Origin: Flavihumibacter sp. CACIAM 22H1 | GTDB lineage: Bacteria > Bacteroidota > Bacteroidia > Chitinophagales > Chitinophagaceae | Assembly (NCBI RefSeq): GCF_001601815.1 | Contig: NZ_LUKG01000027.1 | Coordinates: 8,081-51,735, forward strand | Direction: 5' to 3' | DNA: 43,655 nucleotides | Shown here: piece after piece, positions 31,113 through 34,600 of the stretch | How the letters are laid out: every line of letters starts with the position of its first letter | Numbering within the stretch: position 1 is the first letter of the stretch | Program-made: the position numbers and the translations under genes | The notes under the pieces: model-generated | The model's input: the letters and a program-made list of their open reading frames with translations, nothing else | Databases searched by the model: none | Told to the model about the DNA's origin: nothing

Positions 31113-31988
31113 ATGTCCACTACTCAACACTTGCAACTGGTGGAGTGCCCCCGGGATGCTATGCAGGGATGGCCGCAAATGATCCCTGCTTTCCAGAAAG
31201 TAGCCTACATTAATGCGCTCTTACATGTAGGATTTCATACCATCGATTTCGGAAGTTTTGTGTCGCCCAAAGCAATACCACAGATGGCAGATACTAAAGA
31301 GGTACTGGAAGCACTTGACTTAAGTGCTACCCGATCCGGCTTACTGGGTATTGTTGCCAACACAAGAGGCGCGGAGGAGGCGGTTGTTTATGATAGCATC
31401 CGGTCGCTCGGCTTCCCTTTTTCAGTATCTGAAACCTTTCAACGCAGAAATACCAATAGCACCATTGAACATTCTTTTCAGACCGTGGAGGAAATTCAAC
31501 GTCTCTGCGAAAAGAAAGGCAAGGAACTGGTAATCTATCTTTCCATGGGCTTCGGTAACCCGTATGACGATCCCTGGTCGGAAGAAATAGTCCTGGACTG
31601 GGCAGAAAAAATTGCCGCGTTAGGCGTACCGGTAATATCACTGGCGGATACCGTCGGGTTGGCAAGCCCGGAACAGATCAGCCGTTTAACAAGCACACTT
31701 ATAGAGGCATTGCCAGCAGTGCAAATTGGGGTACACCTGCATGCCAAAGCGGATAACCGTACGGAAAAGCTCGAAGCCGCGTTTAACGCCGGCTGCCGTC
31801 GTTTTGACGGTGCCCTGAAAGGCATTGGCGGATGCCCGATGGCAGGAGATGTACTGGTGGGTAATATGGATACTGCCTTTATTATTAGTTACCTGGAATC
31901 AAGAGGCATAGAAACAGGGATTCATAAAGGAGCACTTCAAAAGTCGATATTACTGGCTAAAGAAGTCTTTTCGCCGGTTGTACTATGA
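31113..31988 (+). CDS. Hydroxymethylglutaryl-CoA lyase
   Basis: Cleaves HMG-CoA to acetyl-CoA and acetoacetate, the last step of leucine breakdown. The 291 residues form a TIM barrel of the HMGL-like family. The metal and catalytic residues appear as: Arg14-Asp15 in ECPRDAMQ, the His-Leu-His pair in IGVHLHAKADN, the catalytic Cys in KGIGGCPMAGD and Asn in VGNMDT. The motif HxHD of the human enzyme ends in Ala here. The start was set at ATG 31113, two codons after a TTG. The stop overlaps the start of the GSCFA gene by 4 nt (ATGA), so both should be translated together. Confidence 0.9.
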   Translation: MSTTQHLQLVECPRDAMQGWPQMIPAFQKVAYINALLHVGFHTIDFGSFVSPKAIPQMADTKEVLEALDLSATRSGLLGIVANTRGAEEAVVYDSIRSLGFPFSVSETFQRRNTNSTIEHSFQTVEEIQRLCEKKGKELVIYLSMGFGNPYDDPWSEEIVLDWAEKIAALGVPVISLADTVGLASPEQISRLTSTLIEALPAVQIGVHLHAKADNRTEKLEAAFNAGCRRFDGALKGIGGCPMAGDVLVGNMDTAFIISYLESRGIETGIHKGALQKSILLAKEVFSPVVL

Positions 31989-32974
31989 AATGGATGACAG
32001 ATATTCAATGGAAGGGACCAGAACCGGGAATCTGCTATAAAGACCCGGTATTTCTGATCGGCTCCTGTTTTACTGAACATATCGGTAACAAGCTTCAGGA
32101 ACTGAAGTATTCGGTTCTACAAAATCCGCATGGCATATTATTCGATCCTATCAGTGTTTGCAACAGCCTGGTAAGTTATCTCGAAAACAAACGATACCAG
32201 GAAGAGGACCTGTTTTATTACAATGAACTCTGGCATAGCTGGTCACATCATTCCAGGTTTTCCGGAATACACAAGCAGGCTGTATTAGAAGGAATGAATG
32301 CAGCAAGGGAGGCCGCCACGGAGTTTTTGAAAAAATCCAGGTGGCTGATTATTACACTTGGCTCGTCTTATTCGTATCGCCTAACAGAAAAAGGGGAGTA
32401 CCCCGTTGCAAACTGCCATCGGTACCCTGCCCAGCACTTCCGGAAGCATTTGTGCAGTATTGATGAAACGGTGGCTGCCCTCGACAATGTGCTGCATCGG
32501 TTGTTTCGGTTTAACCCATCGCTGGAAGTGATATTTACCGTAAGCCCGGTACGGCATTTGCGCGATGGTGTGGTGGAAAATAACAGGAGTAAAGCCAGGT
32601 TGCTGGAAGCTGTACATCACCTGGTGGATAAATTCAACCGGCTCCATTACTTTCCGGCCTATGAACTGGTCATTGATGTACTACGCGATTATCGTTTTTA
32701 TGATATCGATCTTGCACACCCTAATTACCAGGCTACCAGCTATGTGTTGGAACAATTCAAGCAAACTTATATTCAACCAGACGCGCAGCTTCTGATGGAT
32801 AAAATTCAACAAGTGGTAATTGCCGGAAAACATACTGCTTTTCAGCCGGAGACAACTGCACACAAGAATTTTCTTCAAAATTTTGCCCAAAAAACACGCG
32901 AGCTGCAGGACGCCTATCCCTACCTTGATTTTTCGCGCGAACTGGCTTATTTCCAGTCGGGCGAAAAAGGTTGA
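31985..32974 (+). CDS. GSCFA-domain protein
   Basis: 329 residues with the naming motif GSCFTEHIGNKL (~27-38) of the GSCFA family, a group of putative SGNH-type hydrolases. Other family segments are NPHGILFDPISVCNSL (~46-61), ITLGSSYSYR (~119-128) and HLAHP-like DLAHPNYQATSYV (~246-258), which provides the His expected in the SGNH catalytic set. Substrate unknown; no signal peptide, so cytoplasmic. It is translationally coupled to HMG-CoA lyase, and its last 28 nt overlap the end of the convergent pseudokinase-like gene. Confidence 0.85.
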   Translation: MKWMTDIQWKGPEPGICYKDPVFLIGSCFTEHIGNKLQELKYSVLQNPHGILFDPISVCNSLVSYLENKRYQEEDLFYYNELWHSWSHHSRFSGIHKQAVLEGMNAAREAATEFLKKSRWLIITLGSSYSYRLTEKGEYPVANCHRYPAQHFRKHLCSIDETVAALDNVLHRLFRFNPSLEVIFTVSPVRHLRDGVVENNRSKARLLEAVHHLVDKFNRLHYFPAYELVIDVLRDYRFYDIDLAHPNYQATSYVLEQFKQTYIQPDAQLLMDKIQQVVIAGKHTAFQPETTAHKNFLQNFAQKTRELQDAYPYLDFSRELAYFQSGEKG

Positions 32975-33933
32975 ACCGCTTCCATTTTTTCGAGCAGGAT
33001 CAACTGGTTAAAAGCTCGGTGCAGGTTCAGGTCTTCCTCGTTGAAGGTAGTGCGCGGGGCATTCCTAAGGTAATCAGTCGTAAACAGGAGGGCCTGCAGG
33101 TAAGTGACCAGTAATCCCGCGCAGGGTAGCAGTTTTATTTCCTCTTCGGTAAGGCTATTTTTTACTAATTGCAGGTAAGTAGTAAGCAAGCTGTCGTAAA
33201 CGGGCTGGGAAATACCTACATTTTCCCAAACCCGGCTGTCCTCGTCTTCGGTAGAGGCAACGGTGCGTAGGAGTTCGCCCAGGTCTGAAAAGAATAGGCC
33301 TGGCTTTACTTGCTCTATACCCAGCACCGACCAGGCTTTATGTGTTTCGGCATCAAACAGCGTATTGCCGGGCCCGGCACTACCATGCATCCATCGCAGC
33401 GGAAAGGTTTTTTTATCGGATAGGATCCGGTTATACAAAGCCAAATAAGGAACTCTTTCGCGCAGGCTGGCAATTACATGGGTGGCTTTCAATAACTTTT
33501 TAATAGGGGCCTGCTCAATAGCTGTTTCCAAGCCCTTTTTACCAGCGTTTAAATTGTGCAGATCGGGTAAGCCTGGCTGTCGATCAACCATAGGTTGTTG
33601 GTTGGCAGTTCTAAAAAAGCGGGCATACGCGCTGGCAATCTCTGTTGCCAGGGGAGCATCGCAGCGGGTTATCTGATAAAGATCCGGAACAGCACCGAGG
33701 ACAGTCCAAATAACAGGTGCTTCCACCGTTTCTGTGTTACACAGCCATTGCCAGCTACCCTCCAGGTTGTTAGCTAAAGCTGTTATTGGTAGTTCCTTCA
33801 GTATAAAGGCTGGCCCTTGTACCGGCAGCACTTCGTAACTGGAAAGATTTGCCAGTTTGCCGAGGGGTACTATATTGGCTATTTGCCGGCAAAACTGCGT
33901 AGCAGCTTTTTTTACGTACTCAGGTACTTGCAT
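32947..33933 (-). CDS. NahK/APH-fold protein, predicted pseudokinase
   Basis: 328-residue protein of the aminoglycoside phosphotransferase/N-acetylhexosamine kinase fold. A glycine-type loop (IVPLGKLANLSSYEV, ~21-35) and FILKEL (43-48) match the N-lobe. The C-lobe aligns with NahK over MHGSAGPGNTLFDAETHKA (182-200) and VLGIEQVKPGLFFSDLGELLRT (203-224). Against the NahK pattern HND...N and IDLD, the catalytic Asp is Ser185, the Asn before it is Gly184, and the metal-binding Asp is Gly205; the Asn of HxDxxxxN (Asn190) and DxGE (217-220) are kept. Phosphotransfer is thus unlikely unless rescued. It lies 11 bp after miaE, so cotranscribed; role unknown. Confidence 0.75.
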   Translation of the reverse strand: MQVPEYVKKAATQFCRQIANIVPLGKLANLSSYEVLPVQGPAFILKELPITALANNLEGSWQWLCNTETVEAPVIWTVLGAVPDLYQITRCDAPLATEIASAYARFFRTANQQPMVDRQPGLPDLHNLNAGKKGLETAIEQAPIKKLLKATHVIASLRERVPYLALYNRILSDKKTFPLRWMHGSAGPGNTLFDAETHKAWSVLGIEQVKPGLFFSDLGELLRTVASTEDEDSRVWENVGISQPVYDSLLTTYLQLVKNSLTEEEIKLLPCAGLLVTYLQALLFTTDYLRNAPRTTFNEEDLNLHRAFNQLILLEKMEAVQPFSPDWK

Positions 33934-33944
33934 AAACGGCTTGT

Positions 33945-34560
33945 TTAATGAATCCGATCACCCCGCACGCTAAGTTGCTGCATGATCAAGGTTTCAGCTT
34001 CCAGCCATTCAGCCCAGCGTTTACGAACGATCTCTTTATCTATATAATGTTCTGCCAGTTCAATAAAAAGTTTATAATGCCCTGCTTCACTTTCCATGAA
34101 ACGGCGATAGAATTTGCGGAGGTATTCGTCTTGTAAACCTTCGCTCAGACGTTTAAAGCGCTCGCAGCTACGTGCTTCGATCATAGCCATGGTTAGAAGG
34201 CGATCCAGGAAACGAAGGTCTTCATGACCACCTTTTTGCTGAAAGTTAAGCAGGTGATTGACGTATTCGTCCTTGCGTTGCTTTCCCAGCCTGCCCCCTC
34301 TTTTTTCCAATTCCTGTAATACCAGCCTGAAATGCCCCCTATTCTTCCGTAACTATGGGGGCCAGCTCTTTTACCAGCAGGGTTTTATCAGAATAGCGTT
34401 GAATAAGAGAAATGCAGGTGGTAGCCGCTTTTTGTTCGCAATACGCATGATCGGTAAGGATATCTTCCATGGAAATTGCGGCCAGGTCTACCCACCTGGG
34501 GTCGGTGGGTAATTGCAGGCCCAGTATGTTCCTGACTTCTGATGAAATTTCTTCTTCCAT
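33945..34560 (-). pseudogene. miaE: tRNA-(ms2io6A)-hydroxylase, broken by a single-base insertion
   Basis: Ferritin-like di-iron enzyme that hydroxylates the tRNA modification ms2i6A. Two frames carry one gene. The upstream part (34560-34339, MEEEISSEV... to LAPIVTEE) stops at TAG; the downstream part (from 34334 back to 33945) continues the same protein as GHFRLVLQELEKRGGRLGKQRKDEY and so on, with iron-ligand motifs EARSCERFK and ESEAGHYKLF intact. Removing one base (34340, an A on the coding strand) restores GAA-GAA-TGG-GGG-CAT, encoding EEWGHF, the family's ExxH metal motif, and a 204-residue protein of normal length. The break sits beside a run of five G. It is either a real disruption or a sequencing/assembly error. 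Confidence 0.85.
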
Positions 34561-34600
34561 ATGTTGCGTAAAATTTGAGGACAACCCGTATGGTTGCACG

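Follow-up and report, generated by a model that had tools for sequence, protein, structure and literature searches.

A predicted pseudokinase of the NahK type next to miaE in Flavihumibacter, possibly reduced to a non-catalytic C-lobe role

The gene at positions 32947–33933 (minus strand) of the window, by which we mean the whole 43,655-nucleotide stretch of the Flavihumibacter sp. CACIAM 22H1 genome that was analysed, encodes a protein that, judged by its sequence, is a kinase homologue without essential catalytic residues and hence a predicted pseudokinase. The explanation that we favour, with a probability of roughly 0.55, is that selection has retained this reduced protein for a non-catalytic role in its C-lobe, and that two shorter relatives in the same genus are further along. 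At one address, different members of one genus have the enzyme intact, dead but of nearly full length, cut down to one of two successively smaller remnants, or cleanly lost. Since all these stages occur at a single address, the part kept by selection would be directly readable.

The frame starts with ATG 11 bp after miaE and runs for 328 codons without an internal stop, in agreement with the sequence-only reading of this DNA, which had described it as intact. Its 3′ end overlaps by 28 bp (32947–32974) the 3′ end of the convergent GSCFA-family gene (31985–32974, plus strand), which served as a synteny anchor. GC3 of the gene is 0.497, against 0.490 for its neighbours. The upstream miaE (33945–34599, minus strand) lies in two frames in this assembly, with a break near 34339. 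By eye, it contains one extra base as compared with the copy of Flavihumibacter sp. UBA7668 (G014), reflecting either a sequencing error or a recent break; miaE has no stop in the other 13 genomes of the genus that match it.

By significant sequence similarity, the window protein is a homologue of N-acetylhexosamine 1-kinase (NahK) and of the APH phosphotransferases. In phmmer searches it matched the Bifidobacterium NahK entries 4ocu (E 1.2e-13, residues 176–318), 4wh1 (5.9e-13) and 4ocj (6.4e-13), its closest solved relatives by sequence, over residues 176–319 at most, with HGS aligned to HND and GIE to DLD. Unlike these enzymes, it lacks the catalytic Asp, the metal-binding Asp, the glycine loop and the lid, and in the remnants as a group the N-lobe is degenerate or missing. 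The Pfam APH model (PF01636) gave 18 bits, below the cut-off of 23.2, as compared with 35.5 and 47.5 for two intact orthologues. Searched against solved structures, a profile combining the window protein with four intact orthologues reached NahK with an E-value of 6.9e-52; the hits comprised three NahK sequences and a single APH entry. In the homologue tree, the window protein pairs with that of G014 (100/94) and then with the intact orthologue of G011 (98/81), within a 27-row clade (97/96) that contains these two reduced proteins and 25 intact sequences and is separate from the canonical paralogues. One such paralogue, L032, is encoded on a different contig of the window genome. It belongs to the same family and is 29% identical to the window protein, but it has all the catalytic motifs (HHDTKISN and DLDTVMAG intact) and lacks the KATH motif described below. 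A canonical NahK is found elsewhere in all three genomes that carry a remnant (L032, L031 and L024).

The loss of catalytic parts was assessed in an alignment of the copies from the window and from G014 to 59 intact homologues, drawn from the best-matching loci of searches that gave at most 30 loci each. The sequence-only reading had placed HGS at residues 183–185, where HND is expected, Asn at 190, Gly at the metal-binding position 205 and DLGELLRT at 217–224; this numbering proved exact (H183-G184-S185, N190, G205, D217-LGELLR-T224), and both the NahK match and the alignment bear out the substitutions. Ser185 stands at the catalytic Asp and Gly205 at the metal-binding Asp, and both aspartates are present in 59 of 59 intact homologues, which upholds the predicted pseudokinase assignment. 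Equally invariant are the Lys two residues after the catalytic Asp, the Asn, the second Asp of DxD and the Thr that follows; at these six columns, in order, the window protein reads S, G, N, G, E and Q. The dead catalytic loop, HGSAGPGN (residues 183–190; 33364–33387, minus strand, as for all features of this gene), corresponds to HHDCKINN in the G011 orthologue, and GIE (residues 205–207; 33313–33321) replaces DLD in the homologue alignment. In DLGELLRT (33262–33285), D217, G219 and R223 are kept and D254, in L002 numbering, has become Glu; K221, D241, T242, R317 and the two lid tyrosines (same numbering) are missing. At 47 columns, at least 95% of the intact homologues agree. Of these, the window protein retains none of the nine N-lobe columns, 2 of 4 in the linker, 9 of 18 in the catalytic region, all three in the middle of the C-lobe and 8 of the 13 C-terminal ones. 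Seen against this alignment, the replacement of the HxD and DxD aspartates is more than chance. The ATP-binding N-lobe with its GLI loop could not be recognized in the degenerate N-lobe and linker (residues 1–133; 33535–33933), which are shortened by gaps relative to intact orthologues. It had been suggested that the protein might bind a sugar or nucleotide that it no longer phosphorylates. Binding of ATP or sugar appears unlikely, because precisely the parts required are lost: all nine conserved N-lobe columns and the lid are gone, and the shorter relatives lack both the ATP half and the catalytic loop. Nor did the proposal that Ser and Gly might be the rule among homologues survive the comparison; since the 59 intact homologues all have Asp and G014 and G001 lack the segment altogether, the change is a lineage-specific loss and not the signature of a Ser/Gly family.

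The locus was then compared across the genus. miaE and the GSCFA gene occur together in 14 of 15 Flavihumibacter genomes, and G010, which is 75% complete, has neither. At the 14 loci, the kinase is full in four (G006, G007, G009 and G011), absent in seven and present as an open, kinase-dead remnant in three. A stop flagged in G009 turned out to be the gene's own terminator and no interruption. No kinase match was found at the locus in G002, G003, G004, G005, G008, G012 and G013, where the miaE and GSCFA matches lie 6–31 positions apart. The remnants measure 328 codons in the window, 176 in G014 (also retrieved as L038, from the same contig and place) and 101 in G001; the two shorter ones retain the same helices. 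That of G014 has lost the N-lobe and the catalytic loop, and it shares the MQVPE start and a similar C-terminal tail with the window protein. The G001 form, an AT-rich frame between miaE and GSCFA (L085 1174–1479, minus strand; GC3 0.257 against 0.369 for its neighbours), comprises the KATH helices and the final two, without ATP lobe or catalytic loop, and keeps only 9 of 19 C-terminal columns conserved in the subfamily. Pfam searches gave no match at E 1 for the 101-aa form and only sub-threshold, unrelated matches for the 176-aa form. All three remnant frames begin just after miaE and terminate at the end of GSCFA, their deletions are in frame, and no broken remnant was seen among the 14 loci. 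In a species tree built from four neighbour genes, the window genome (G000) and G014 are sisters (100/100) and adjoin a four-genome clade without the gene (100/100); G011, with its full kinase, falls outside this assemblage, and G001 lies elsewhere, its exact place unsettled. Because G001 sits apart from G000 and G014, reduction would have happened at least twice, perhaps three times. On the same tree, absence of the kinase resembles three separate losses (G002; G012 and G013; G003, G004, G005 and G008).

Eight regions of other genera were compared: three have miaE, kinase and GSCFA within 12 kb, three have miaE and kinase, and two have kinase and GSCFA. On the strength of these groupings, a full kinase at the miaE–GSCFA address is probably ancestral. 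When 394 genomes of the family were searched with the 101-aa form, 17 matched, and every match other than that of G001 itself lay in a frame of at least 349 aa; further small remnants may exist, since the search was insensitive enough to miss the window's own copy. Within 1.5 kb of GSCFA in 27 genomes beyond the genus, a kinase match was present in four (two almost complete, two truncated where the locus ends) and absent in 23. No broken remnant was seen beside GSCFA in these 27 genomes, most of whose loci may never have had the gene.

Structure prediction was informative for the 176-aa form only. AlphaFold2 models of the window protein built from two sequences reached a pLDDT of 38.8 and were uninformative. 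For the 176-aa form, also modelled from two sequences and without templates, the best model had a pLDDT of 70.6 and a pTM of 0.71, as against pLDDT values of 33–36 for the other four. This model superposed on 4ocu (chain residues 142–345) with a Z-score of 13.0 and an rmsd of 3.8 over 167 aligned residues, a score that helical bundles can reach by chance (Z about 13); choline and homoserine kinases followed at Z 7.6–9.3, and the Foldseek E-values were weak, 8.6e-3 at best. The match to the NahK C-lobe is nevertheless favoured, because six NahK entries head both lists and the homologous stretch is the one covered. The 176-aa form is thus predicted to have the NahK C-lobe fold, Bifidobacterium NahK (4wh1, 4ocj and 4ocu) being the structure that the model resembles most.

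Constraint along the gene was estimated with neutral branch lengths taken from the GSCFA, HMG-CoA-lyase-like, miaE and penicillin-acylase-like genes, placed on a tree of seven genomes (tips of 2.25 substitutions per codon for G000 and 2.21 for G014), because pairwise omega values of intact orthologues mostly hit the branch-length bound. Codon estimates for the N-lobe were set aside, since this part aligns unreliably and is missing from G014 and G001. Over residues 96–319, omega was 0.081 for the background, 0.071 for the G000+G014 stem, and 0.358, 0.23 and 0.176 for the window, G014 and G001 tips, respectively. The window value differs from 1 (2dlnL 76), a difference part of which may predate inactivation. 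Along the window branch, omega was 0.176 in residues 134–165, 0.23 in 210–240, 1.07 in 241–261, 0.038 in the C-lobe helix 262–290 (33064–33150), 12, at the bound, in the lid 291–300 (33034–33063), and 0.030 in the C-terminal helix 301–319 (32977–33033). The estimate for the catalytic segment 166–209, 0.70–0.92, is insecure, because the absence of the segment from G014 leaves stem and tip indistinguishable; once the stem was freed, the tip was no different from the background (2dlnL 0.6), and a two-part test of this segment against the C-lobe, which has the same limitation, gave 2dlnL 4.5. A neutral fraction shared by all structural segments was rejected (2dlnL 51.1, 6 df, p 2.9e-9), also when 166–209 was left out, with the stem tied or free (2dlnL 46.0, 5 df, p 9e-9). 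As the segment borders were drawn after the alignment had been inspected, tests on equal blocks provide the cautious figures: for the window branch, p was 0.0028 with 27-codon blocks and 0.048–0.05 with blocks of the columns common to G014. Unevenness on the other branches had p 7e-4 (G001) and p 0.088 (G014).

Constraint on the window branch thus looks mosaic, the lid and residues 241–261 evolving as if neutral and the KATH and last helices being constrained. The direct comparison with G014 is of the same kind. The KATH stretch (32 codons) contains 12 synonymous and 7 amino-acid differences, and the C-terminal helix (19 codons) 9 synonymous differences and a single amino-acid difference, leaving 18 of 19 residues as in G014. 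In the lid (10 codons), which reads NDIYYKTTEP in G011, there are no synonymous differences and 10 amino-acid differences, so that none of the ten residues is shared. The KATH helices (residues 134–165; 33439–33534), which include APIKKLLKATHVIASLRER, carry a subfamily-specific motif present in all three remnants. E170, L181, T185, H186, I188 and R192 (L002 numbering) each occur in 25 of 25 subfamily members, and all six are found in the window, G014 and G001 proteins; with the exception of I188, none of these residues is the majority one among 34 other homologues. Across the subfamily, the KATH helix is a concrete candidate for a site on a sugar kinase that serves no catalytic purpose.

Retention by selection has to be weighed above all against neutral decay, in which the kinase would recently have become useless, the three remnants would be still-open pseudogenes and their constraint would be left over from the active period. 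We give this explanation distinctly less than an even chance, yet it is a strong and serious rival, because half of the genus lacks the gene, the sister clade included, and the cautious tests are moderate. Any function retained would be dispensable, since 7 of 14 genomes do without the gene, and four of these seven make up the sister clade of G000 and G014, as for an outgoing gene. The tips are relaxed overall (0.36, 0.23 and 0.18 against 0.08), and an omega below 1 may predate inactivation. Relaxation also appears to be young, since the stem leading to G000 and G014 is still as constrained as the background. Equal blocks common to G014 leave the unevenness borderline, and the adjoining miaE is likewise broken in this assembly. 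Decay would, however, be expected to act uniformly along the gene, and uniformity is rejected on the structural segments; it would also not be expected to leave only in-frame deletions and open frames in all three remnants. In simulations of neutral evolution by substitutions only, without indels, about 4–7 stops are expected in the window gene for the implied neutral phase of about 0.35–0.8 substitutions per codon (from the profile), and the probability of no stop is 0.018–0.001. For G001, worked out by hand, it is 0.018 at a phase of 0.96, and for G014, also by hand, an unremarkable 0.11 at a phase of 0.26. The broken frame by which a pseudogene would be recognized is found neither in the 328 open codons of the window gene nor in the other two remnants. 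The selected function that the intact frame had suggested to the sequence-only reading is putative, but favoured by the mosaic constraint, the stop simulation and the three open frames.

Two further explanations seem far less probable. The protein might still be a kinase, with another acidic residue such as Glu207 or Glu220 having taken over catalysis; Glu indeed replaces D254 and the second Asp of DLD, and the abstract of PMC10211241 mentions that in some pseudoenzymes catalytic residues have migrated. Continued kinase activity is very hard to reconcile with the disappearance of Q50, N53, R110 and K221 along with the glycine loop and both the catalytic-base and the metal-binding aspartates, and with two shorter relatives that have no catalytic segment at all. 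Alternatively, the sequence might be an artefact of assembly or sequencing, as the window genome is a draft of 169 contigs and the adjoining miaE has a frame break. Errors would not, however, yield an intact 328-codon frame with a GC3 matching that of its neighbours, and two other genomes carry further reduced copies; we consider an artefact highly improbable.

Under the preferred reading, a C-lobe role retained by selection, the gene descends from a miaE-linked sugar kinase of the NahK type in which every catalytic motif was present. From the window protein the lid, the catalytic base and the metal-binding Asp have disappeared together with the motifs for ATP binding, and selection seems to keep part of the all-helical C-lobe, namely the KATHVIASLRER helix together with the final two; reduction has gone further in the 176-aa and 101-aa forms. 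On the simplest account, the intact kinase would already have had a second, non-catalytic job in its C-lobe, as a partner-binding, scaffold or regulatory element, and this job may have outlived kinase activity where a canonical NahK exists elsewhere in the genome. The intact relatives would then be active, and the remnant would be expressed with miaE and bind a putative partner. It is tempting to speculate, as a tentative idea to which we assign less than even odds, that in Chitinophagaceae the miaE-linked NahK subfamily has two functions, sugar phosphorylation and partner binding by the C-lobe, and that Flavihumibacter has repeatedly kept only the latter module, down to 101 residues. If decay were the true explanation, the locus would instead be a snapshot series of in-frame bacterial gene loss.

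A parallel is provided by the bacterial spore kinases (BSK), pseudokinases of the choline/aminoglycoside kinase group. According to PMC2860764, several BSK classes lost catalysis, independently in the authors' model, BSKC6 lost the entire N-lobe, and a common non-enzymatic function was inferred. BSK are spore-coat proteins of endospore formers, whereas the parent here is a NahK-type sugar kinase of Bacteroidota; unlike in BSK, reduction here proceeds past the catalytic loop to 101 aa, and full, reduced and absent states are found at one address within one genus. In the open-licence papers searched, the only one that joins NahK and pseudokinase is off topic by its title.

Interrupted copies also occur in the wider family. 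In G239, which belongs to another genus and whose genome is 79% complete in 840 contigs, the kinase gene (L152) has an interruption that leaves the catalytic motif intact, so that a broken full-length gene does occur in the family; among the matches listed, a stop was also flagged in the kinase of G132. The gene order at L152 is miaE, the interrupted NahK-type kinase, an aldose 1-epimerase-like gene (named by eye) and GSCFA. A mutarotase adjoining the kinase there would suit an anomeric sugar kinase.
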